Part shown: positions 3,968 to 16,845 of the stretch, piece after piece
How positions within the stretch are numbered: the first letter of the stretch is position 1
How the letters are laid out: each line of letters starts with the position of its first letter
Origin: a virus
DNA: 21,016 nucleotides
Reading direction: 5' to 3' (one strand)
Virus record (IMG/VR): IMGVR_UViG_3300018416_000144
Location: 1-21,016 of that record
The notes under the pieces: model-generated
Database searches by the model: none
Seen by the model: only the letters and a program-made list of their open reading frames with translations
Told to the model about the DNA's origin: nothing
Made by a program: the position numbers and the translations under genes

Positions 3968-6121
3968 ATGGCTTTTCAAACAAGTCCAGGCGTTAATATC
4001 AGCGAAATCGACCTAACGAATGTCGTCCCAGCTGTAGCGACAACTGAAGGCGCAATTGCGGGTGTCTTTCGTTGGGGTCCAGAACTAGAAAGAATCCTAG
4101 TAACATCAGAGCAAGACTTAGTTAATCGCTTTGGTAAACCATTAAGTAGTTCTACATCAGTTGAATCTTCTGCAGGTACCGCAGAGACTGTAACGTTTGA
4201 CGATGTTGCAGTGCCCACAGCAGGTGGAGCCGCTACTGATACGTGGACACTTGTAGTTGGTAGCGAAACTTACGTTACTGCCGCAGGCGACTATGCTGAT
4301 CTATCTGCTGTTGCAACAGCAATTCAAGCTAAACTAACTTTAGATGGTGTAACTGATTACTCAGTATCAGTGGTCAGCAACTTGATTACACTAACATGGT
4401 CTTCAGTTGGCAATCAAGTAGTTGGAACATACAGTATTACTTACACAGGTGGCGGAACTGGATCTGCAAATGATGCGGCTCCTACTATCGTGCAAGGTAC
4501 TGCTCGTACAGTAACGACTACTCAGTGGTCAAACTACGAGACGTTCTTTTCAGCCGCAAACTTTTTATCGTACAGTGACGCATTGTACGTAACACGTGTT
4601 GTCGGCTCAGCCGTAGCATCTACCGGCACAAACTTCAACGCAAAATACAAAGGTACATTAGGTAACTCTATTCAAGTATCTCATTGCGTAGGAAGTTCTA
4701 ACATGAGCGTAACTGCTAGAGCAGATAATCTAGTAATTGATCCGTACAAAACTGTAGGTACAATCACAAATAGTACTTCGGCTCTTACGTATCTTTCAGT
4801 TGGAGATAGAATCGTATTATCAACTGGAGACGAACTAGTTGTTACTGCAATTGCTTCACCTACCGGATCTGGTCCTTATACGAGACAAGTCACCTTTGAT
4901 AGAGTGTTTAGTCCAGCAGATGGTGCTCAGTACAATTCCACTTTCAGCACACAGTGGAGAGATGCGGATTTATTTGATTCTGCTCCTTCAAGTGCAAGTA
5001 GAATGCACGTTGTTGTGCGTGACAGAGATGGCGCAATTACTGGCACTGCAGGAACAATCTTAGAGGTATTTGAGGATATCGACACTACATCTGGTTCATT
5101 GAACCCAGACGGATCTACTAACTTCTCTCCAGACGTTTTCGAGAATCGTTCAGATTGGATTGCATGTACTGTGAGTCAAGCAGGACTTCAAGCATCTTTG
5201 ACTTACGGTCAAGCGAATCTTGCTGGTGGAGTTGATAGTCCAGACGAAAGTTCGATTCCAATTGGCAAATTAACTGAAGGCTATAGCCTATACGTAGATC
5301 CAGCTGATGTGGATGTATCACTCATCATTCAAGGTAAAGCAAGAGGATCAGTTCTTGCGAATCACATCATCAATAGTGTATGTGAAGTTCGTAAAGATTG
5401 CGTGGCATTTATTTCGCCTGAACTAAGCGACACTACCGTTGCTGATATGACAGCATTTGCTGGTGAACTTACTGCTTCTACATTTGCAGTCGTGGACAGC
5501 GGATATAAATATCAGTATGACAAGTACTCAGACGTATATCGTTGGATTCCGTTGAATGCTGATATCGCAGGTCTTTGTGCAAGAACAGATGACGTAAGAG
5601 ATCCTTGGTTCTCACCTGCTGGTTACAGTAGAGGAAATATTAAGAACGTTGTTAAGTTACGATTGAACCCCGCTAAAGCTGAAAGAGATGTGCTTTATAG
5701 AGCAAAGATCAATCCAGTTATTACACAGCCGGGACAAGGCACTGTACTGTTCGGAGACAAAACTTTTGCTCCAACAACTTCAGCGTTTGATAGAATCAAT
5801 GTACGTAGATTGTTCATCGTTCTTGAGAAGGCAATCGGTGTAGCCGCTAAGTCTACATTGTTCGAATTCAACGATGACTTTACGAGAGCCCAGTTTAAGA
5901 ACCTAGTTGAGCCTTTCTTACGAGACGTTCAGGGTAGACGTGGTATCTATGACTTCAGAGTTGTTTGTGACGAAACTAACAATACCTCGAATGTCATTGA
6001 TAGTAATCAGTTTGTTGGCGATATTTACATCAAGCCTGCACGTTCTATCAACTTCATCCAGCTTAACTTTGTAGCCGTTAGATCGGGTGTAGAGTTTTCT
6101 GAAGTAGTAGGTCAGTTTTAA
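3968..6121 (+). CDS. 18: Contractile tail sheath gp18 with an inserted domain
   Basis: gp18 polymerises around the tube and contracts to drive injection. The product is 717 residues against 659 in T4. Family landmarks are the N-terminal SPGVNISEIDLTNVVPAVAT, GAIAGVFRWGP, NFLSYSDALYVTRVV, KYKGTLGNS and, at the C-terminus, SPAGYSRGNIKNV, RINVRRLFIVLEKAI and FLRDVQGRRGIYDFRVVCDE. Residues about 60-186 separate two stretches that are normally close together (RFGKPL and NYETFFSAANFL). They form a Thr/Val/Ala-rich beta block (TVTFDDVAVP, DTWTLVVGSETYV, YSVSVVSNLITLTW) resembling small domains in other phage surface proteins. AAGGAG ends nine bases before the ATG at 3968. An ATG at 3961 is out of frame and ends after 11 codons. 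It is followed by tube gene 19. Confidence 0.95.
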   Translation: MAFQTSPGVNISEIDLTNVVPAVATTEGAIAGVFRWGPELERILVTSEQDLVNRFGKPLSSSTSVESSAGTAETVTFDDVAVPTAGGAATDTWTLVVGSETYVTAAGDYADLSAVATAIQAKLTLDGVTDYSVSVVSNLITLTWSSVGNQVVGTYSITYTGGGTGSANDAAPTIVQGTARTVTTTQWSNYETFFSAANFLSYSDALYVTRVVGSAVASTGTNFNAKYKGTLGNSIQVSHCVGSSNMSVTARADNLVIDPYKTVGTITNSTSALTYLSVGDRIVLSTGDELVVTAIASPTGSGPYTRQVTFDRVFSPADGAQYNSTFSTQWRDADLFDSAPSSASRMHVVVRDRDGAITGTAGTILEVFEDIDTTSGSLNPDGSTNFSPDVFENRSDWIACTVSQAGLQASLTYGQANLAGGVDSPDESSIPIGKLTEGYSLYVDPADVDVSLIIQGKARGSVLANHIINSVCEVRKDCVAFISPELSDTTVADMTAFAGELTASTFAVVDSGYKYQYDKYSDVYRWIPLNADIAGLCARTDDVRDPWFSPAGYSRGNIKNVVKLRLNPAKAERDVLYRAKINPVITQPGQGTVLFGDKTFAPTTSAFDRINVRRLFIVLEKAIGVAAKSTLFEFNDDFTRAQFKNLVEPFLRDVQGRRGIYDFRVVCDETNNTSNVIDSNQFVGDIYIKPARSINFIQLNFVAVRSGVEFSEVVGQF

Positions 6122-6127
6122 TAAATA
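6120..6127 (+). promoter_or_regulatory. Possible variant late promoter for gp19
   Basis: AATAAATA overlaps the gp18 stop codon and differs from the TATAAATA consensus only at the first base. It lies 23 bases before the gp19 ATG, tight but possible for a short leader. Tube protein is needed in large amounts, so a separate late start would make sense. Read-through from the gp18 promoter is the alternative. Confidence 0.4.
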
Positions 6128-6149
6128 TTAATCAAAGGAGATATGAATA

Positions 6150-6704
6150 ATGGCTTTCAACATTAATGAAATTAAAAGCCAACTGACCTTCGGGGGTGCT
6201 AAAGCATCGCTGTTTCAAGTACAGATTACAAATCCTGTAAATGCAATAGCGGATCTTAAAACACCTTTCATGGTACAGGCGGCAGCAATTCCAGAGAGTA
6301 CTCTGGGCACAATCGAGATTCCGTATTTCGGTCGTAAAGTAAAAATCGCAGGTGACAGAACATTCGCAGAGTGGACTGTTACTATCATGAATGATGAAGA
6401 CTTCCTAATTCGCAATGCGATGGAAAACTGGATGGCTTCAATCAATGCACACGAAGGTAATACACGACAGTTGGCAACAGCGGCGAGTTCAGAGTATAAG
6501 TCACAAGCACAGATTACTCAGTACTCAAAAACTGGTGTACCATTGAGAACGTATAACTTTAATGGTCTGTTCCCAACAGCAGTTGCTTCAATTGCTATGG
6601 ATTGGAACACTACGGACGATATTGAACGATTTGATGTGACATTCCAATACGATTGGTGGAACGTTGACGGTGGCATCACTGGCAACGGCGGCACTAACGC
6701 TTAA
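6150..6704 (+). CDS. 19: Tail tube protein gp19
   Basis: gp19 builds the inner tube through which DNA passes, and stacks as hexamers inside the gp18 sheath. The product is 184 residues (T4 about 163). It begins MAFNINEIKSQLTFGGAKAS and shows the tube-fold pattern: FQVQITNP, IEIPYFGRKVKIAGDRTF, WTVTIMNDEDF, then LRTYNFNGLFPTAV and ERFDVTFQYDWW near the end. AAAGGAG at 6134-6140 is nine bases from the ATG at 6150. An ATG at 6143 is out of frame and stops after seven codons. A strong intrinsic terminator follows 17 bases after the stop. The protein at 12223 shares the same pattern and is a paralogue. Confidence 0.95.
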   Translation: MAFNINEIKSQLTFGGAKASLFQVQITNPVNAIADLKTPFMVQAAAIPESTLGTIEIPYFGRKVKIAGDRTFAEWTVTIMNDEDFLIRNAMENWMASINAHEGNTRQLATAASSEYKSQAQITQYSKTGVPLRTYNFNGLFPTAVASIAMDWNTTDDIERFDVTFQYDWWNVDGGITGNGGTNA

Positions 6705-6720
6705 TTGGGCGATAATTAGG

Positions 6721-6746
6721 GGGGAGAATGGTTCTCCCTCTTTATT
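6721..6746 (+). terminator. Intrinsic terminator after gp19
   Basis: GGGAGAA (6722-6728) pairs perfectly with TTCTCCC (6732-6738) around the three-base loop TGG, with G6721-T6739 as a possible extra wobble pair. TCTTTATT follows. It closes the tail (18-19) transcription unit before the portal gene. Confidence 0.85.
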
Positions 6747-6758
6747 AGAGGATTAACT

Positions 6759-8321
6759 ATGGATTTATTTGGATTTGAAATAAAGCGGAAGAAGGATGAG
6801 AATGACAATATTCCATCTTTCGTTACTCCGCAAACTGACGACGGCGCTGTAAATATCGCCGCAACTGGTACTGGGATCAGTACTTTTTTGGACATGGACG
6901 GTACTGCAAAGTCAGAAGCAGAACTTGTTCAGAAGTATAGAACTATGTTACAGCAACCTGAGGTTTCTCAGGCAGTTGACGATGTAGTAAACGAAGCAAT
7001 TTCAATCTCAAACGACCAGAAAGTCGTTGAGTGTGTTACAGATGATTTAGATCAACCTGATAACATTAAGAAAAAGATTAGAGAAGAGTTCGACGGTGTA
7101 CTTAAACTACTAGACTTCTCTAACACTGGATACGAAACGTTTCAAAAGTGGTATGTTGATGGAAGAATCAACTATCATGTTATGATTGACGTTAAAGCGC
7201 CTAAGAAGGGCATACAAGAATTACGATATATTGATCCTCGCAAGCTTAGAAAAGTACGTGAGTATAAGAACGAAAAGATTGGCGATAAAGACAATCAAGC
7301 TGTAGCAAAAAAGATTAAGAATGAATATTATATCTACAGTGAAAAAGGATTCAATAATATCAGTGGTAGTAGACCACAAGGTTTTGCAGATGGTAGTACT
7401 CAAGGAGGTATGGCAGGTCTTAAAATTGCGAAAGACTCTATTGTAAATGCCAACTCTGGATTACTTAATGAAACTAGTACGCTAGTATTATCGCATTTAC
7501 ATAAGGCATATAAGCCTTTAAATCAGTTGCGTATGATGGAAGATGCTGTTGTAATCTATCGTATCTCACGTGCGCCTGAAAGAAGAATTTTTTATATTGA
7601 TGTTGGTAATCTGCCTAAAATGAAAGCAGAACAGTATCTACGTGATATGATGACTAAGCATAAAAATCGTTTAGTCTATGATATGGCTACAGGTGACGTT
7701 AAAGATGATCGTAGGCATATGTCTATGACTGATGATTTTTGGTTACCTAGACGTGAAGGCGGTAGAGGGACAGAGATTACTACTCTACCAGGTGGACAAA
7801 ATTTAGGCGAATTAGAAGACGTTATGTACTTTCAGAAGCGTCTATTAAAAGCATTAAATGTTCCCATTTCGAGAATGGAATCTGATGCAGGATTTTCTTT
7901 AGGAAGAGCATCAGAGATTTCAAGAGATGAGATCAAATTTAGTAAGTTTATTAGCAGACTGAGAGCAAGATTTGCTACTTTGTTTGATAAGATATTAGAA
8001 AAGCAGTTGATTTTAAAAGGAGTTATTGCTCCAGAAGATTGGGCTGCAATTCAATCTAATCTCCGTTATGACTTCATGAGTGATAATCACTTTGAAGAAT
8101 TGAAAACAAGTGAGATTTTGAGAGAGCGACTAGGTTTACTTAGAGATATTGATGAGTATACCGGCAAGTACTATTCGACAGATTGGGTACGTAAAAACGT
8201 ACTATATATGACAGAAGATGAAATCGAAAAGATGACTCAGGACATTAAAGATGAGGAAGAATCGACAGAAGATGACGATGATTCAGGAATCGATTTTGGA
8301 ACAGAACATAAGATCGTATAG
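6759..8321 (+). CDS. 20: Portal protein gp20
   Basis: gp20 forms the dodecameric portal at the unique head vertex. It initiates prohead assembly, docks the terminase and later binds the neck. The product is 520 residues, essentially the T4 length (524). Family features include the acidic, flexible N-terminus, the early KYRTMLQQPEVSQAVDDVVNE segment, LRYIDPRKLRKVREY, APERRIFYIDVGNLPK, the MATGDVKDDRRHMSM crown-side stretch and LEDVMYFQKRLLKALNVP. The C-terminus is very acidic (EEESTEDDDDSG). AGAGGA at 6748-6753 lies five bases before the ATG. No promoter is visible in the 54-base gap after the terminator, so expression probably depends on read-through or an unrecognised start. Confidence 0.96.
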   Translation: MDLFGFEIKRKKDENDNIPSFVTPQTDDGAVNIAATGTGISTFLDMDGTAKSEAELVQKYRTMLQQPEVSQAVDDVVNEAISISNDQKVVECVTDDLDQPDNIKKKIREEFDGVLKLLDFSNTGYETFQKWYVDGRINYHVMIDVKAPKKGIQELRYIDPRKLRKVREYKNEKIGDKDNQAVAKKIKNEYYIYSEKGFNNISGSRPQGFADGSTQGGMAGLKIAKDSIVNANSGLLNETSTLVLSHLHKAYKPLNQLRMMEDAVVIYRISRAPERRIFYIDVGNLPKMKAEQYLRDMMTKHKNRLVYDMATGDVKDDRRHMSMTDDFWLPRREGGRGTEITTLPGGQNLGELEDVMYFQKRLLKALNVPISRMESDAGFSLGRASEISRDEIKFSKFISRLRARFATLFDKILEKQLILKGVIAPEDWAAIQSNLRYDFMSDNHFEELKTSEILRERLGLLRDIDEYTGKYYSTDWVRKNVLYMTEDEIEKMTQDIKDEEESTEDDDDSGIDFGTEHKIV

Positions 8322-8337
8322 ACTAGTTGTAATAAAA

Positions 8338-8345
8338 TATAAATA
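8338..8345 (+). promoter_or_regulatory. T4-type late promoter for the prohead core genes
   Basis: This exact TATAAATA lies 17 bases after the gp20 stop and 32 bases before the gp67-like start. A second AT-rich TATATAAAC follows at 8349-8357 but does not match the consensus. The promoter would serve the 67-68-21 block. Confidence 0.85.
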
Positions 8346-8369
8346 AGATATATAAACGAGGAGATAGTA

Positions 8370-8570
8370 ATGAGCGTGAAAGAATTAATTAAACATGCGA
8401 TGGACAAAGACGCAACACAATTTCAGTCTCAGTTCCAGGACATTATGGCAGACAAAATGACATCTGCTATCGAAACAAAATATGCTGACATGTTTGGTGC
8501 AGGCGAAACAGTAGAAGTTGAAGAGCCAGTTTCAGAACCAGACGTAGAAGCAGTAACAGACCAAGAGTAA
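8370..8570 (+). CDS. 67: Small prohead core protein, gp67-like
   Basis: A 66-residue protein sits in the gene 67 position, directly after the portal gene (T4 gp67 is about 80 residues). The first half is helical and mixed-charge (VKELIKHAMDKDATQFQSQFQDIMADKM) and the second is acidic and Pro/Val-rich (EVEEPVSEPDVEAV). In T4, gp67 is an internal core protein needed for correct head shape and is degraded by the gp21 protease; I see no strict I/L-X-E cleavage motif here. ACGAGGAGA at 8356-8364 provides the ribosome site. Sequence similarity alone would not secure the name; position and composition do. Confidence 0.7.
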   Translation: MSVKELIKHAMDKDATQFQSQFQDIMADKMTSAIETKYADMFGAGETVEVEEPVSEPDVEAVTDQE

Positions 8571-8579
8571 GGGGCAACA

Positions 8580-9041
8580 ATGAAAAGCTTTAAGGAAATG
8601 CTTGCTGAGACTACGGATAAACCAAAGTCTCCAGATGAGCAGAATTTTTTAGACAAACATATCGTTGACAAGCGTGATCATCCTGTCGCACCTGATGACC
8701 AGTTCTCAGGTGAGATTAAAGGCAAGAAGAAAAAGAAGCGTGAAGCTGATCGTGAAGAAGGTCAAGATAAAGAAGTCTATGAAGAAATTGAAGCTGAAGA
8801 AGAGATCATTGTTGAAGGTGTTCTTGAAGATTTAGCTAAAATTGTTAAGACTAAATCTATAGGTCACGTAAAGTTTAAAGACGGTAAGAAGCAAAAGGTC
8901 GATCTTACTACCGCATCTATGATCCTTTCAATGCACAAGCAATTGAATGGCTCTAATAAAAAGAAAGTTGAAGGTATGCTAGATGACAGCAAAAAGTTTA
9001 TGCAGATCGTTCAATTTGCAATGACCGCAGGGAAGAAATAA
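8580..9041 (+). CDS. 68: Prohead core protein, gp68-like
   Basis: A 153-residue, highly charged protein occupies the gene 68 position (T4 gp68 about 141 residues). It starts MKSFKEMLAETTDKP. It has a Lys cluster (GKKKKKREADREE), an acidic stretch (EEIEAEEEIIVEG), and a compact-looking C-terminal part (IGHVKFKDGKKQKVDL, then KKKVEGMLDDSKKFM). LAE (residues 8-10) and IVE fit the I/L-X-E rule of the T4 prohead protease. The ATG is 10 bases after the gp67 stop, preceded by AAGGGG, so it is co-transcribed. Its role as core component is inferred from T4. Confidence 0.68.
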   Translation: MKSFKEMLAETTDKPKSPDEQNFLDKHIVDKRDHPVAPDDQFSGEIKGKKKKKREADREEGQDKEVYEEIEAEEEIIVEGVLEDLAKIVKTKSIGHVKFKDGKKQKVDLTTASMILSMHKQLNGSNKKKVEGMLDDSKKFMQIVQFAMTAGKK

Positions 9042-9042
9042 T

Positions 9043-9738
9043 ATGTCTCTATTAATCAAAGAAATTGTTGAAGACGTACAATATATCTCGGAAGATATCC
9101 TCAACGAAGAGGGTGAAAAAACGGGTAAGAACTATTTCATTGAAGGTGTTATCATGCAAGGTGACATTAAAAATAGAAATGGACGCATGTATCCAGCATC
9201 TACTCTTATTAAAGAGATGACTAGGTATAACAAGAATTACGTTGAAGCAAAACGTGCATATGGCGAGTTGGGTCATCCAGCTGGACCTACAATCAATTTA
9301 GATCGTGTGTCACATATGTTTACAGAACTTAAGCAGGACGGATCTAACATTGTTGGACGTGCTAAAGTTATGGATACTCCAATGGGTAAGATCGTAAAAA
9401 GTCTTATCGATGAAGGCGCAAACCTAGGTATCTCATCACGTGGCATGGGTTCTATTAAGCAAAACAAAGATGGAGTTATGGAAGTGCAGGGCGACTTTAT
9501 GTTAGCTACTGCTGGAGATATCGTTGCAGATCCTTCTGCTCCAGACGCATTCGTTAAGGGCGTTATGGAGGGAGTCGATTGGGTCTACGATGTAGCATCT
9601 TCTTCTTGGACAATGGCAAATGCATTTGATCAAATTGAAGAGGAAATCAAGGAGACGGCAAAAGTATCTACAAGGGAATTGGAGATTAGGGCCGCCGCTC
9701 TTTTTGAAAAATTTGTAAGTTCATTGTCAAAAACATGA
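9043..9738 (+). CDS. 21: Prohead maturation protease gp21
   Basis: gp21 is the serine protease assembled inside the prohead. It trims the capsid and core proteins, digests the scaffold and then destroys itself. The product is 231 residues (T4 about 212). Likely catalytic residues are His78 in GELGHPAGPT and Ser131 or Ser132 in LGISSRGMG; GDFMLATAGDIVADPSAPDAF follows, as in the T4-type family. The N-terminal ISE (15-17) and LNE (20-22) match the enzyme's own I/L-X-E target rule and are plausible self-cleavage sites. The start is one base after the gp68 stop (TAATATG). The ribosome site is the GGGAAG at 9030-9035 inside gene 68, indicating tight coupling. Confidence 0.93.
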   Translation: MSLLIKEIVEDVQYISEDILNEEGEKTGKNYFIEGVIMQGDIKNRNGRMYPASTLIKEMTRYNKNYVEAKRAYGELGHPAGPTINLDRVSHMFTELKQDGSNIVGRAKVMDTPMGKIVKSLIDEGANLGISSRGMGSIKQNKDGVMEVQGDFMLATAGDIVADPSAPDAFVKGVMEGVDWVYDVASSSWTMANAFDQIEEEIKETAKVSTRELEIRAAALFEKFVSSLSKT

Positions 9739-10764: not shown

Positions 10765-12033
10765 ATGAGAAATGAAGAACTAATGCAAAAGTGGAAGCCG
10801 ATTCTAGAGCATGGCGCTCTGCCCGGCATCCAAGATTCTCACAGAGCGGCCGTAACAGCTACTCTTTTGGAGAACACCGAAGAATCAATGCGTGAAGGCG
10901 AAAGTCTCGGCGCAACTGGCTCTTTACTAAACGAAGCCGCACCAGCTAACTCAACTGCTGATATGGCTAAATACGATCCCGTACTGATCTCTCTAGTACG
11001 CCGTGCAATGCCTAACTTGGTTGCATATGATATCGCAGGCGTACAGCCGATGACTGGCCCAACTGGCTTGATCTTCGCTATGCGTTCTAAGTACGAAGAC
11101 ACATCTGGTAAGCCAGAAGCCTTCTACGGCGAAGCAGATACCGATTACTCTGGTACTGGTACTCATGCTAACGCATTGGGTGCAGGATCAGAAACAACTG
11201 GTACTGGCCTTGATACTGCTGATGCAGAAGCACTTGGTGATGGAGCCGGAGCTGAATTTGCTCAGATGTCTTTCTCCATTGAAAAAGTTTCTGTAACTGC
11301 TAAGTCACGTGCTTTGAAAGCTGAGTACACAACTGAGCTTGCTCAAGACCTTAAAGCTATCCATGGTTTGGATGCTGAGACTGAGTTGGCAAACATGTTG
11401 TCTGCTGAGTTGCTTGCTGAAATCAACCGTGAAGTAATCCGTACAGTGTACTCAAACGCTGTTGCTGGTTCTCAAGGTGGAGTAGCTTCAAACGGTACTT
11501 TCAACCTAGACGTTGACGCAAATGGCCGTTGGTCAGTTGAGAAGTTCAAGGGATTGATGTTCCAAATTGAAAAAGAAGCCAACCAAATCGCAAAAGATAC
11601 TCGTAGAGGAAAAGGCAACATCATCGTCTGTTCTTCAGATGTAGCTTCTGCTCTTCAAATGGCCGGTGTACTTGATTACGCACCTGCTCTTAACTCTAAC
11701 AATCTGAATCCAGATGACACAGGCAACACGTTTGCTGGTGTTCTGAACGGTCGCTTCAGAGTTTACATTGACCCATATGCTGGTGCAAACTACATGGTTG
11801 TCGGTTATAAAGGTTCTAGCGCATTTGATGCTGGTCTTTTCTACTGCCCATATGTACCATTACAGATGGTCAGAGCAGTTGGCGAGAACAGCTTCCAGTC
11901 TAAGCTGGGCTTCAAGACTCGTTACGGAATGGTTTCAAACCCATTTGCTCAAGGTGCAACTGTTGGATCTGGCGCACTTGCTGCCAACACCAACGTGTAC
12001 TACAGACGTACCGCAGTTACCAACTTGCTGTAA
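10765..12033 (+). CDS. 23: Major capsid protein gp23
   Basis: This is the HK97-fold shell protein, 422 residues against 521 in T4, so it is compact. Family landmarks are MRNEELMQKWKPILEH at the N-terminus, YDPVLISLVRRAMPNLVAYDI, GVQPMTGPTGLIFAMRSKY, VTAKSRALKAEYTTELAQDL, IIVCSSDVASALQMAGVLDY and FKTRYGMVSNPFAQG near the end. The propeptide is probably removed after LNE at residue 57 (SLLNE|AAPANS), matching the gp21 I/L-X-E rule and the T4 cleavage near residue 65. A glycine/threonine-rich segment at about 122-160 (YSGTGTHANALGAGSE) looks like a surface loop. The gene has its own late promoter and is followed by a very strong terminator, so it can be a single-gene transcript. Codon choice appears more regular than in neighbours, as expected for high expression. 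Confidence 0.97.
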   Translation: MRNEELMQKWKPILEHGALPGIQDSHRAAVTATLLENTEESMREGESLGATGSLLNEAAPANSTADMAKYDPVLISLVRRAMPNLVAYDIAGVQPMTGPTGLIFAMRSKYEDTSGKPEAFYGEADTDYSGTGTHANALGAGSETTGTGLDTADAEALGDGAGAEFAQMSFSIEKVSVTAKSRALKAEYTTELAQDLKAIHGLDAETELANMLSAELLAEINREVIRTVYSNAVAGSQGGVASNGTFNLDVDANGRWSVEKFKGLMFQIEKEANQIAKDTRRGKGNIIVCSSDVASALQMAGVLDYAPALNSNNLNPDDTGNTFAGVLNGRFRVYIDPYAGANYMVVGYKGSSAFDAGLFYCPYVPLQMVRAVGENSFQSKLGFKTRYGMVSNPFAQGATVGSGALAANTNVYYRRTAVTNLL

Positions 12034-12186: not shown

Positions 12187-12194
12187 TATAAATA
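12187..12194 (+). promoter_or_regulatory. Second late promoter, for the tube-like gene
   Basis: This exact TATAAATA starts three bases after the structured element and lies 29 bases before the ATG at 12223. The ten-base perfect palindrome ATAGTACTAT (12192-12201) overlaps its end and the predicted start site. Confidence 0.82.
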
Positions 12195-12808: not shown

Positions 12809-13243
12809 ATGAAGATAGATGAGATCATTAAAGAATGGGAAAAAGATGGACCAGTGGACACCATCAACATATCCAGAGAATCCTCTGAGATACCGAAACT
12901 GCACAATAAGTACTTTAAATTCTATATGGGAGAAGGCTATCTCCTGAAGAAGATGAAGGCTGACTACAAAAAATTACACAAGCTGAAGACTGAGTACTAC
13001 AAAGGTGATCTGGATATTAGTGAACTCAAGCAGTATGGATGGGAACCTCAACCGCTAAAAATTCTCAGACAAGACATTCCGACTTACATAGAGGCAGATG
13101 ATGATATCATTGAAGCATCTCTTAAGATAGGAGCGCAAGAGCAAAAAGTAGAGTACCTCGAGTCTATTATTAAACAGATCAATAATCGTGGATTTCAAAT
13201 CAAATCAATCATAGACTGGGAGCGTTTTAGAACAGGTGCCTAA
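12809..13243 (+). CDS. uvsY: Recombination mediator UvsY
   Basis: UvsY loads the UvsX recombinase onto gp32-coated single-stranded DNA in recombination-dependent replication and repair. The product is 144 residues (T4 137). It is Lys/Glu-rich and helical throughout, with KYFKFYMGEGYLLKKMKADY and LKTEYYKGDL corresponding to the T4 family's N-terminal half. The C-terminal INNRGFQIKSIIDWERFRTGA closely matches the T4 family ending (IKSRGFAIKHI). GGAG at 12800-12803 lies five bases before the ATG. The stop overlaps the uvsW start (TAATG), and the uvsY-uvsW pairing is that of T4. UvsX itself is not in the window. Confidence 0.9.
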   Translation: MKIDEIIKEWEKDGPVDTINISRESSEIPKLHNKYFKFYMGEGYLLKKMKADYKKLHKLKTEYYKGDLDISELKQYGWEPQPLKILRQDIPTYIEADDDIIEASLKIGAQEQKVEYLESIIKQINNRGFQIKSIIDWERFRTGA

Positions 13244-14703
13244 TGGATAACGTGAGTGTAGAAAAAGTCGATGACGTTTACGTGAGAGTAAACGCAGACC
13301 CTGGGATCAAGATGGAAATGAGCGAGTACTTCACATTCGAAGTGCCTGGCGCTAAGTTCATGCCTGCTGTTCGCAACAAAGTTTGGGACGGCAAAATTCG
13401 TCTATTGAACACGATGACTGGTATGATCTACGCTGGTTTGATTCCGTATATACTCAAGTTCTGTAACACAAGAGAATATCATGTTACAATCGATAAGGGT
13501 CTTGTACCTAATAATGTTGTCAACGATGATGCTGGAATGCAACTTGCAAAGGAGTTTAACTCTACGTTTGTTCCGAGAGATTATCAGAACGAAGCAGTTG
13601 TTCATGCATTAAGGAGTGAAAGAGCCTTACTGCTATCACCCACTGCTTCTGGTAAGTCATTCATTATATACCTGTTAACTCGCTTTCACGTAGAATCTGC
13701 TAACAGAAAAGTGTTGATCGTTGTGCCTACAACTTCGCTAGTTGAGCAAATGGCATCAGACTTCATTGAATATAACAACGGAAACGAACTATCAATACAT
13801 AAAATTCGTGGTGGCATTGATAAGAATGTAGATGCTGATATCACTATCACAACATGGCAGTCAGTGTACAAGCTAAGAAAAGATTGGTTTGAGAAGTTTG
13901 ATGTTGTAGTGGGAGATGAAGCACACCTATTTAAAGCCAAGTCGCTGACAAAAGTATTAGAGAAAATGCCTAGTTGTCAATATAGATATGGGTTCACTGG
14001 AACATTAGACGGAACTCAGACTCATAAACTAGTACTTGAAGGACTTTTTGGTTCAGTCTATGAGGTCACAAAGACAAAGAAACTTATCGAAGATAACACA
14101 TTAGCAGACTTTTTTATCACTGCCATTGTATTGCAGTACCCCGATGAAATTAGGAAGCTAAATAAAAATAAGACGTATCAAGAAGAAATCGACTGGATAG
14201 TGAGTAATGAATCAAGAAACAAATACATCAAAAATCTCGCACACAGCCTCGAAGGAAACACGCTCATCTTATTTCAGTTCGTTGAAAAACACGGCAAAAT
14301 ACTACATCCTATGCTTGAGGGAAATGACAAGGCCGTACACTTTATCCACGGAGCTGTTAGTGCTGAAGATCGTGAAGCAGTTAGGCATTTGGTTGAGTCA
14401 AGCAATAATAATATTATTCTCGCTAGTTATGGTACTTTTAGCACTGGGGTTAATATTAAGCGTTTGGATAATATCATATTTGCAAGCCCTAGTAAATCAA
14501 AAATACGAAACTTACAATCCATAGGGCGAGTGCTACGTAAAAGTAGTGACAATACCAAAGCTACATTGTATGATATTGTAGACGATCTACAGTGGAAAAG
14601 TAGTAAGAATTTCGCAACCAAGCATTTTATGGAAAGAGTGAAAATTTATAATGAAGAAGGTTTTGAGTTTCGTATATACAATGTCAACATAAAGGGGAAT
14701 TAG
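13243..14703 (+). CDS. uvsW: Superfamily 2 helicase UvsW
   Basis: UvsW unwinds R-loops, D-loops and stalled forks. In T4 it shuts off origin-primed replication and promotes recombination-dependent replication. The product is 486 residues (T4 503). Motifs in order are the Q-like PRDYQNEAV (111-119), Walker A SPTASGKS (132-139), Ia VVPTTSLVEQM, motif Ib ITTWQS, DEAH (225-228), motif III FTGTLD (251-256) and motif VI QSIGRVLR (425-432). The N-terminal roughly 100 residues (MEMSEYFTFEVPGAKFMP, WDGKIRLLN) are the UvsW substrate-binding domain. Translation is coupled to uvsY. A consensus reverse promoter at 15087-15114 could give antisense RNA over the 3' end of this gene. In T4 uvsW is late; here it appears to be driven by the sigma70-type uvsY promoter. 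Confidence 0.96.
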   Translation: MDNVSVEKVDDVYVRVNADPGIKMEMSEYFTFEVPGAKFMPAVRNKVWDGKIRLLNTMTGMIYAGLIPYILKFCNTREYHVTIDKGLVPNNVVNDDAGMQLAKEFNSTFVPRDYQNEAVVHALRSERALLLSPTASGKSFIIYLLTRFHVESANRKVLIVVPTTSLVEQMASDFIEYNNGNELSIHKIRGGIDKNVDADITITTWQSVYKLRKDWFEKFDVVVGDEAHLFKAKSLTKVLEKMPSCQYRYGFTGTLDGTQTHKLVLEGLFGSVYEVTKTKKLIEDNTLADFFITAIVLQYPDEIRKLNKNKTYQEEIDWIVSNESRNKYIKNLAHSLEGNTLILFQFVEKHGKILHPMLEGNDKAVHFIHGAVSAEDREAVRHLVESSNNNIILASYGTFSTGVNIKRLDNIIFASPSKSKIRNLQSIGRVLRKSSDNTKATLYDIVDDLQWKSSKNFATKHFMERVKIYNEEGFEFRIYNVNIKGN

Positions 14704-15063
14704 ATGCTTATACACATCAAAATGAAATCAGGAGATGATCTCATCGCTACACTTTTGTCGAGTGATGATGAAGAAGTAACTATTGAAAATCCCATTCTAG
14801 TAAAGATACACCCAGTTCATGGGTTTTTTGCTAAAAGCTGGATGCTTCTTTCTGAGGCAAATAGCGTAGGCCTGTCACTTAAAGACATTACCTTTTGGGG
14901 ACAAGCAAACAGTAAAGCTATCGAATACTACGATACCTTTGCAGAGAGACTTACACAACTTCAGAGCCTAAGAGCCCGAGAAGAAATACGTGAAGAGCAG
15001 ATTGAAGAGATCGAAGATGTGCTAGTTGCTTACCTAGAGTCTAAAGAATCTATAAAGCATTAG
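14704..15063 (+). CDS. Small Sm-like phage protein of unknown role
   Basis: The product is 119 residues. The N-terminal half (MLIHIKMKSGDDLIATLLSS, then EEVTIENPILVKIHP) has the strand-turn pattern of an Sm/LSm beta-barrel: a bent first strand, the SGDD turn and an N-P in the next strands. The C-terminal roughly 45 residues are helical and charged (LRAREEIREEQIEEIEDVL), possibly a coiled coil. Similar short proteins occur in marine T4-like phages, as I recall, without a known function. The ATG follows the uvsW stop directly, with AAGGGG at 14693-14698, so it is co-transcribed with uvsY-uvsW. RNA binding (as in Hfq) is possible but unproven, because half of the classical Sm2 motif is not evident. 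Confidence 0.6.
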   Translation: MLIHIKMKSGDDLIATLLSSDDEEVTIENPILVKIHPVHGFFAKSWMLLSEANSVGLSLKDITFWGQANSKAIEYYDTFAERLTQLQSLRAREEIREEQIEEIEDVLVAYLESKESIKH

Positions 15064-15086
15064 TGTTTTAATATTCGTATAACTCA

Positions 15087-15114
15087 ATTATACACGATTC
15101 CTCAGCCATGTCAA
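15087..15114 (-). promoter_or_regulatory. Consensus sigma70 promoter on the minus strand
   Basis: Read on the minus strand, TTGACA (15114-15109) and TATAAT (15092-15087) are both perfect consensus hexamers, separated by 16 bases. Transcription would begin near 15080 and run leftwards into the 3' end of the Sm-like gene and uvsW. No coding frame of note lies on that strand. It is head-to-head with the gene 55 promoter. Confidence 0.6.
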
Positions 15115-15154
15115 GTCTTTTTTCAGTTATTTTTAAATAAAATTTTACTTGACA
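15109..15154. repeat. Inverted repeat joining divergent -35 boxes
   Basis: TGTCAAGT (15109-15116) and ACTTGACA (15147-15154) are perfect eight-base inverted copies. Each arm contains one -35 hexamer, of the minus-strand and plus-strand promoters respectively. The 30 bases between them are strongly AT-rich (TTTTTT at 15118-15123, TTTTTAAATAAAATTTT at 15130-15146). This resembles a shared UP-element-like centre. Confidence 0.65.
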
Positions 15155-15177
15155 AACGAGGTTAAAAGGGTTATACT
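15149..15177 (+). promoter_or_regulatory. Sigma70-type promoter for gene 55
   Basis: TTGACA (15149-15154) and TATACT (15172-15177) have the ideal 17-base spacing, with an AT-rich tract upstream. It lies 26 bases before the gp55 ATG and would make the late sigma factor available early from host polymerase. The preceding stretch 15064-15108 shows no terminator. Confidence 0.88.
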
Positions 15178-15202: not shown

Positions 15203-15781
15203 ATGGCAAAAAGAAATTACGTTAACAATCCAGAATTCTTGCAAGCTATCATAGCATACAAAAAGCTATGCAGTGAAGCAGAAGATTCGGGAGATCCAAG
15301 ACCACAGATACCCGACTATATAGGACATTGTATCTACCAGATATCAACTAGGCTCGCATCTAAGCCTAATTTTTCTGGGTACTCATACAAAGATGAGATG
15401 ATCAGTGATGGACTTGAGAATGCTATTCAAGCTTTGGGAAATTTTGATCCTGAAAAGTCTCACAATCCGTTTGCTTACTTCACTCAGATTATTTGGTACG
15501 CATTTCTTCGGAGAATCGAAAAAGAGAAGAAGCAGTTGTATATCAAGCACAAGGTTACAGAAAATTCTGTGATGACTGGTACTGCCGTAGATCACGCTGA
15601 GGGCAGTGTGGATCGAAATGGAGAACCAGGTTATATCGATCTCAATAATGACTACATGAGTGATTTTGTTCGTGGTTATGAAAAGAAGATGGACGACAAG
15701 AAAAAAGCGCAAATCAAATCCAAGAAGGGCTTAGAGAAGTTTATTGATGATGAGGATAAAACGAAAGAGGAGACAGAATGA
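15203..15781 (+). CDS. 55: Late-transcription sigma factor gp55
   Basis: gp55 replaces the host sigma factor and directs RNA polymerase to the TATAAATA late promoters, in T4 together with gp33 and the gp45 clamp. The product is 192 residues (T4 185). The family core is clear: a YIGHCIYQISTRLASKPNFSGYSY stretch, DEMISDGLENAIQALGNFDP, then NPFAYFTQIIWYAFLRRIEKEKKQ. This is the sigma region 2-like helix set, with its aromatic-rich segment. AAGGAG at 15188-15193 is nine bases before the ATG at 15203; an ATG at 15199 is out of frame. The C-terminus is highly charged (KKMDDKKKAQIKSKKG). The stop overlaps gene 47 by four bases (ATGA). Its cognate promoters occur at least six times in this window. 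Confidence 0.95.
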   Translation: MAKRNYVNNPEFLQAIIAYKKLCSEAEDSGDPRPQIPDYIGHCIYQISTRLASKPNFSGYSYKDEMISDGLENAIQALGNFDPEKSHNPFAYFTQIIWYAFLRRIEKEKKQLYIKHKVTENSVMTGTAVDHAEGSVDRNGEPGYIDLNNDYMSDFVRGYEKKMDDKKKAQIKSKKGLEKFIDDEDKTKEETE

Positions 15782-16845
15782 AAATTGCTGTTATCAATGA
15801 TACACATTGGGGTGCAAGAAACGATAACGCCGCATTTCAAGAATACTTTAACAAATTTTATCGGGAAGTTTTCTTTCCCAAGTTGCGTGAAGAAGGTATA
15901 AAAACTATATTTCATCTTGGTGATGTAACAGATAGACGTAAGTACATTAACTTTGTAACAGCCAAGAACTTAGAAGAGAACTTCATGAAAGTGTGCCATG
16001 AAGAAGGTATCGAACTGTACATCATTGCAGGTAATCATGATACGTTCTACAAGAACACAAATGAGGTCAATAGTCTTCGGCAATTGTATGGTACATCTAA
16101 GTACGATAACATCCACATCTATTGGGATGAGCCAGTTGAACTACAGATGGAAAGCTGTAAAGTGATGATGGCGCCTTGGATCTGTGCTGACAATCAAGAG
16201 AAGTCATTTCAAGCATTTAAAGACACAGATGCTCAAGTTCTATTTGGTCATTTAGAGATGCAGGGCTTTGAAATGATGAAAGGTCAACTTTGTGATCACG
16301 GACTAGACAAGAAGATTTTTAATCGTTTTGATGCGGTCTATTCTGGTCACTTTCATCATCCGTCTACGATAGACAACATCACTTATCTTGGTGCACCGTA
16401 TGAGATGAATTGGTCAGATTATGATCAGAGGCGTGGATTCAACATCTTCGATACTGAAGATAGAAGTATGACTCACGTTGCAAACAATCTACGTATGTTC
16501 CATAAAATCATGTATGACGATGAAGATATGACAATCGAAGATATTGCAAATCTTGACACTTCGAACTTGACAAACACCTTCATAAAAGTTATAGTAAGAA
16601 ACAAGAGTAATCCATATATCTTCGATTTGTTCTTGGACAAGTTGCAAGCCGCCGGACCTTGTGATATCAAGGTTGTCGAGGATCATATGAATTTGGATGT
16701 AATTGATGAGAGTGAACTAGTTGATGAAGCACAGGACACTTTGACCATTCTAAAACAGTATGTCTCTAACTTGGAGATTACGAATGATAAGGCAAAGATC
16801 GAAAAAGTGCTAGATGAATTATATCAAGAGGCTATCAATTTATGA
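15778..16845 (+). CDS. 47: Recombination nuclease subunit gp47 (SbcD/Mre11-like)
   Basis: With gp46 it forms the Mre11/Rad50-type complex that resects DNA ends for recombination-dependent replication and degrades host DNA. The product is 355 residues (T4 339). All metallophosphoesterase motifs are visible: NDTH (7-10), GDVTDRR (48-54), GNHD (85-88), GH (157-158) and GHFH (190-193). The C-terminal roughly 120 residues (from LRMFHKIMY) form the usual capping and gp46-binding part. The ATG overlaps the gene 55 stop. A promoter-like TTGACA-N17-TATAGT lies within the gene at 16567-16595 and could add transcription of gene 46. Confidence 0.95.
   Translation: MKIAVINDTHWGARNDNAAFQEYFNKFYREVFFPKLREEGIKTIFHLGDVTDRRKYINFVTAKNLEENFMKVCHEEGIELYIIAGNHDTFYKNTNEVNSLRQLYGTSKYDNIHIYWDEPVELQMESCKVMMAPWICADNQEKSFQAFKDTDAQVLFGHLEMQGFEMMKGQLCDHGLDKKIFNRFDAVYSGHFHHPSTIDNITYLGAPYEMNWSDYDQRRGFNIFDTEDRSMTHVANNLRMFHKIMYDDEDMTIEDIANLDTSNLTNTFIKVIVRNKSNPYIFDLFLDKLQAAGPCDIKVVEDHMNLDVIDESELVDEAQDTLTILKQYVSNLEITNDKAKIEKVLDELYQEAINL
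16567..16595 (+). promoter_or_regulatory. Possible internal promoter within gene 47
   Basis: TTGACA (16567-16572) and TATAGT (16590-16595) are 17 bases apart. These are the same two hexamers and the same spacing as the promoter at 20087. It lies 247 bases before the gp46 start, inside coding sequence (ALT-poor region LTNTFIKVIVR), so chance cannot be excluded. Confidence 0.4.

Follow-up and report, generated by a model that had tools for sequence, protein, structure and literature searches.

A reverse sigma70-type promoter kept at the uvsW/gene 55 border of T4-like phages, with a possible role in early anti-late transcription

Early transcription of the strand opposite late genes gives rise in phage T4 to anti-late RNA, known from classic hybridisation data to which no single conserved promoter is tied, and a similar role is proposed here for a promoter at the border of uvsW and gene 55. 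In Synechococcus phage S-PM2, CfrI is an experimentally proven antisense RNA (Millard et al. 2010, as reported in PMC2984593), described there as a detected transcript of ~225 nt at psbA and a homing endonuclease gene. At T4 oriF and oriG, MotA-dependent middle promoters may act through a non-coding RNA, a process ended by UvsW (PMC3016281). The site described here would, like CfrI, give antisense RNA in a T4-like marine phage, and it shares with the T4 origins a promoter with a possible non-coding RNA role. It differs from CfrI in being known from its promoter sequence alone, and from the T4 origins in being of sigma70 type; unlike CfrI, as that source presents it, it is conserved far beyond one phage. 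Sigma70 promoters have been predicted genome-wide in cyanophages, in a paper in whose main text the word antisense does not occur (PMC3037559), and early and middle transcription in cyanophages without the T4 regulators has been called an open question (PMC2984593). A literature search found no description of the present conserved reverse promoter, which is weak evidence of novelty given its partial journal coverage.

The window, meaning the whole stretch of DNA analysed, is a 21-kb IMG/VR contig of a marine T4-like phage with the gene order uvsY - uvsW - Sm-like - gp55 - gp47. Two complete sigma70-type promoters stand back to back in the 139-bp gap 5' of gp55, and the features relevant to them are as follows.

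12187..12194, plus strand: last T4-type late promoter-like site (TATAAATA) 5' of uvsY-uvsW-Sm-like
12809..13243, plus strand: uvsY (Pfam UvsY, E 2e-27)
13243..14703, plus strand: uvsW helicase, putative antisense target (Pfam UvsW_N and helicase domains)
14704..15063, plus strand: Sm-like or 'methylamine utilization' small gene, putative antisense target (PHROG 471, E 9e-7)
15069..15086, minus strand: reverse start region (TGAGTTATACGAA), holding a short inverted repeat in most relatives but not in the window's subclade
15080, minus strand: predicted antisense RNA start, placed 7 nt past the -10 from the hexamer position
15087..15092, minus strand: reverse -10 TATAAT, 16-bp spacer, 12/12 together with its -35
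15109..15114, minus strand: reverse -35 TTGACA, 12/12 together with its -10
15118..15123, minus strand: UP-element-like A-tract just 5' of the reverse -35, its A-rich positions conserved in the pelagic group
15149..15177, plus strand: gene 55 promoter TTGACA-N17-TATACT, 11/12 (-35 at 15149-15154, -10 at 15172-15177)
15203..15781, plus strand: gp55 late sigma factor (PHROG 234, E 5e-59; Pfam Sigma70_r2)

The divergent pair reported in the initial annotation is real and correctly placed, with a 12/12 minus-strand promoter (15114-15087) facing away from that of gene 55. Its further statements that the window has no minus-strand gene and that the reverse promoter would fire antisense to the Sm-like gene and uvsW also hold, as all 19 ORFs of at least 80 aa lie on the plus strand and the orientation of the site aims it into these two genes. 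The reverse promoter bears the marks of sigma70 recognition (TTGACA/TATAAT, spacing within 16-18 bp, and -10 positions 1, 2 and 6 the most constrained) and ranks first among 40 promoter-like sites in 18 kb, a total of mostly weak sites that does not exceed shuffled sequence (47.8 +/- 7.0). A different kind of divergent promoter, the symmetry-driven bidirectional type, likewise has one non-coding antisense partner, but its two directions share one -10 and start 7-25 bp apart (PMC10268837), whereas the window has two complete promoters with predicted starts at ~15080 and ~15184, about 104 bp apart; this class was rejected for the window.

Conservation was followed through three IMG/VR scans, with gp55 of the window phage, Syn33 and Sf-FR1 as queries, which gave 240 loci and, with eight reference phages added, 171 distinct Sm-like/gp55 intergenic regions; the Sm-like gene precedes gp55 at every locus used. 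Of these 171 regions, 170 carry a minus-strand promoter scoring at least 10/12, the single exception being Methylophilales phage Melnitz, and most members of the window's group score the full 12/12; the counts are not independent, given the shared ancestry of the sequences. Shuffled controls reach 10/12 in 144 of 3,420 regions (about 4%) and 12/12 in none. Loss of the reverse hexamers from relatives that keep the gene 55 promoter, the outcome that the initial annotation had named as contrary to its reading, is thus not the case in those 170 regions. It is rather the forward promoter that is the less conserved, falling below 10/12 in 16 of the 171 regions, nearly all of which retain the reverse one, and where one of the two has decayed it is more often the forward. 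The reverse promoter scores 12/12 in Pelagibacter phages HTVC008M and Mosig and in Sinorhizobium phages phiM12 and phiN3, 11/12 in S-PRM1, ACG-2014f, S-SKS1 and Stenotrophomonas phage DLP_6, and is weak in MC09; the Pelagibacter, Sinorhizobium and Stenotrophomonas phages that have it share the order uvsW - Sm-like - gp55. It is absent from RB32 and Vibrio phage PVA8, where gp55 has other neighbours. The reverse promoters of S-PM2 and Syn33 are stronger than that of P-HM2 (120.2-120.8 kb).

Within the aligned regions the hexamers hold ~2.0 bits against 0.2-0.8 bits at most spacer positions, meaning that the spacer has mostly turned over around them. The reverse -35 carries 2.0 bits per position in the pelagic and first cyanophage groups and 1.9-2.0 in the second, while in the cyanophage groups -10 positions 1, 2 and 6 are invariant and variation falls mainly at 3 and 5, as sigma70 recognition predicts; the reverse spacer is 17 bp in all cyanophage-type regions but one. 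Several pelagic lineages have two tandem 12/12 reverse promoters. Since it is kept in almost all related phages examined, the reverse promoter is very likely functional. A/T-rich DNA does often contain weak promoter-like sites, but near-universal conservation with a sigma70 pattern of tolerated positions makes chance the least probable reading of all, and the ~104 bp between the predicted starts, against 7-25 bp (PMC10268837), places a functionless by-product of promoter symmetry at the same very low level.

In the 174 kb of Syn33 the reverse promoter is the sole minus-strand site of at least 11/12, versus 27 on the plus strand, and around other genes plus-strand sites are strongly enriched while minus-strand sites mostly match shuffled sequence, on which ground a general anti-late promoter system was rejected. 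The clearest minus-strand excess elsewhere lies in the left 60 kb of G003 (5 sites versus 0.6 expected). Strong minus-strand promoter-like sites were also seen singly or in series: four at 5290-9554 of G003, in a late module near terminase and tail-sheath genes; three tandem 12/12 promoters, 74-77 bp apart and opposite a plus-strand promoter, at 71629-71808 of Melnitz-1 (MZ577095.1), the phage without a reverse promoter at gp55; and, at 156286-156313 of phiM12 (KF381361.1), a second, near-identical copy of that phage's reverse gp55 promoter, flanked by a small gene and nrdJ and again facing away from a downstream plus-strand gene.

No antisense ORF is conserved by position in the pelagic or cyanophage groups, no intrinsic terminator is conserved within 2.5 kb at the 171 loci, the Sm-like gene displays no clear synonymous constraint, and no conserved RNA sequence was found; Rfam returned nothing above threshold, its RAGATH-27 hit (E 0.79; 27.8 bits, where the gathering score is 76.1) being at chance level. 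A discrete sRNA was rejected for want of a conserved terminator, clear synonymous constraint or Rfam match above threshold, and a hidden minus-strand gene for want of a conserved ORF. That the promoter drives a small protein-coding gene is very improbable: in phiM12 a 50-aa minus-strand CDS is annotated immediately downstream, but the frame is broken in phiN3 and, as stated, no ORF position recurs in the other groups. With neither conserved ORF, terminator nor clear synonymous constraint, only the promoter points to an RNA function, and selection has probably acted on the act of transcription or on a primer role. A promoter that aims into late genes, has no evident gene product and is nevertheless kept in phages of cyanobacteria, Pelagibacter, Sinorhizobium and Stenotrophomonas implies a shared step in the timing of UvsW, late transcription or replication in these abundant phages.

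Early anti-late transcription over the Sm-like gene and uvsW appears to be the likeliest role, held with somewhat less than even confidence. T4 expresses uvsW from a late promoter, and UvsW, restricted to late times, unwinds origin R-loops (PMC3016281); as these R-loops start replication in T4, early UvsW would be harmful. In the window the late-promoter-like TATAAATA sites sit upstream of structural genes, the last at 12187, and none lies directly 5' of uvsY, uvsW, the Sm-like gene or gp55. Because the late-type sites are found only farther upstream and no plus-strand sigma70 site of at least 11/12 stands upstream of uvsY-uvsW-Sm-like in the window, late read-through probably accounts for the transcription of these genes, an arrangement that agrees with an antisense effect on uvsW. 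The reverse promoter, of a type that uses host sigma70 and from which we infer early activity, stands where the late module on the left borders the early one that begins with gene 55 on the right, pointing left, and would meet the read-through unit head-on at its end. Early in infection a non-coding RNA would start at ~15080 and cross the Sm-like gene in antisense, continuing into uvsW and possibly as far as uvsY; leftward transcription itself, and not the RNA sequence, would be what matters, opposing stray early transcription and translation of uvsY-uvsW-Sm-like by interference or RNA pairing, until polymerase programmed by gp55 overrides it from the upstream late promoters. Against this role, the early antisense RNA may be gone before the late uvsW mRNA appears. 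Also on the plus strand here, inside the Sm-like gene, a stem-loop followed by a T-run (ACCCAGTTCATGGGT TTTTTG, 14810-14832) looks like an internal terminator.

How the two promoters are arranged bears on a second reading, in which the reverse promoter serves gene 55 itself, polymerases loaded back to back helping or competing with each other (through supercoiling, shared A/T-rich upstream DNA or mutual exclusion) and so tuning early gp55. The initial annotation had noted an eight-base inverted repeat formed by the -35 boxes, and had considered a regulated switch; the repeat is indeed exact in the window (TGTCAAGT at 15109-15116 and ACTTGACA at 15147-15154, around a 30-bp centre of which 27 are A/T), but relatives do not keep it as a unit (L004, for example, has GTCTTGACA). 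Within the window's group the -35 boxes lie 13 to 68 bp apart, and in the Syn33-type cyanophage group the promoters interleave, with a median -35 gap of -16 bp. Since the spacing of the -35 boxes is not conserved, the window's repeat is best read as incidental, and a divergent switch with a shared operator, needing a fixed repeat spacing, was rejected. Interleaving does mean that one polymerase would exclude the other, making coupling to gp55 possible and most plausible in Syn33-type phages, and even the longer regions of phiM12 and phiN3 keep the reverse promoter at a distance of about 0.1-0.15 kb from gp55. The variable geometry, together with the decay of the forward promoter beside a retained reverse one described above, argues against such coupling as the general explanation, and we consider it unlikely.

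Copies of the reverse promoter elsewhere provide a further view of its activity. The cyanophage module TTGACA-N17-TA[C/G]AAT-AACNNTGTNNGGGTTCA occurs in at least 120 IMG/VR places; among the 120 matches listed, 96 are flanked on the other side by a divergent gp55, and most of the remaining 24 have a candidate ORF downstream. In sense, the module precedes cpeT, segE-like and other ORFs that begin 55-91 nt from the -35, the clear cases being CpeT and SegE-type GIY-YIG proteins (55-81 nt), with cpeT of Syn33 among them. This recurrence in sense before cpeT and segE-type genes favours transcription from the antisense copy, and with it a working promoter. Sense copies that also carry the repeat described below were seen in Syn33 at 13830 and 46909 (L334, L335), in S-PM2 at 162737 (L457), and in IMG/VR loci L352, L372, L394, L398, L414, L418, L451 and L454, where they precede cpeT, segE-type GIY-YIG endonuclease genes and small unknown genes.

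A short inverted repeat occupies about -6 to +9, just 3' of the reverse -10, in most relatives, and its loop frequently has T[G/A]T close to the predicted start (AGCG-TTAT-CGCT, AGAG-TTATCG-CTCT, AACCT-TGTGG-AGGTT, CAGGA-ATG-TCCTG, AACGG-TGT-CCGTT, AGGC-ATGT-GCCT and TCAGG-TGTCG-CCTGA are examples). Its arms covary: by a scripted comparison, MAFFT having aligned the hexamers but not the repeats of eight distant elements, mean uninterrupted pairing is 2.44 over 32 arm types, a value attained in none of 500 controls with arms swapped among the sequences, for which the mean falls to 1.20. With G-T pairs allowed the minus strand pairs better than the plus strand (4.41 versus 3.06), a difference resting largely on one clade. 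A terminator hairpin on the sense strand was rejected, there being no T-tract and the arms pairing less well on that strand in one clade. The early-promoter hairpins of phage N4 likewise combine free stem bases with conserved loop bases, but those hairpins have their centre at -11 and their reader is a phage polymerase (PMC4496689), whereas the relatives' repeat centres on a predicted sigma70-type start; an N4-type hairpin promoter was rejected for this position. The repeat is not essential to the promoter, since the window's own subclade has lost it, and across whole genomes repeats of this type are not enriched at promoters generally (38 versus 32 expected). Its presence in most relatives suggests an extra function outside the anti-late model.

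One such function would be the binding of a regulator to the repeat, with the reverse gp55 site, cpeT and segE-like genes as a small regulon. Covariation of the arms and recurrence of the module at few other places are in line with this, but the arms vary greatly in sequence from genome to genome and even inside one genome, unlike a fixed operator, and the repeat is missing from the window's subclade, so that we regard a regulator as improbable. A separate reading is replication priming, in which the leftward RNA would form an R-loop to prime replication from an origin, as transcripts do at T4 oriF and oriG, and UvsW, encoded at the same locus, would clear it later. The T4 precedent (PMC3016281), a single strong non-coding promoter that nearly all relatives retain at one position despite the lack of conservation in its RNA, and the better folding of the repeat on the non-template strand in part of the family, which could keep an R-loop open, all speak for a primer. 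The absence of a GC-skew switch at the locus in ten contigs (weak negative evidence on an origin), the lack of iterons in an unsystematic look, and the position of the same module in sense before ordinary genes speak against it, leaving it with a low probability. More broadly, and as a rather doubtful proposal, T4-like phages infecting marine and soil bacteria may share an undescribed sigma70 promoter type with a start-site stem-loop conserved in pairing and not in sequence, whose most constant copy would be the antisense promoter at the uvsW/gene 55 border, controlling the early-to-late switch of replication or transcription.

Further promoter-like elements were encountered in the same genomes. 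The window has a strong plus-strand site within gp47 (16567-16595), as does G003 at 61870 with similar flanks, and strong plus-strand sites within coding genes, recurring between relatives, are also found at G001 23754, G004 13399 and G002 9377; such intragenic sites may be internal promoters for the next gene. The early modules of G001, G002 and G004 share an early promoter family, GGTTGACA...TCCAACCTGCTATAAT, in which an inverted repeat GGTTG...CAACC between the -35 and -10 looks like a common control site, with examples in G002 at 10965, 11331, 69109, 69332, 72341 and 72660.
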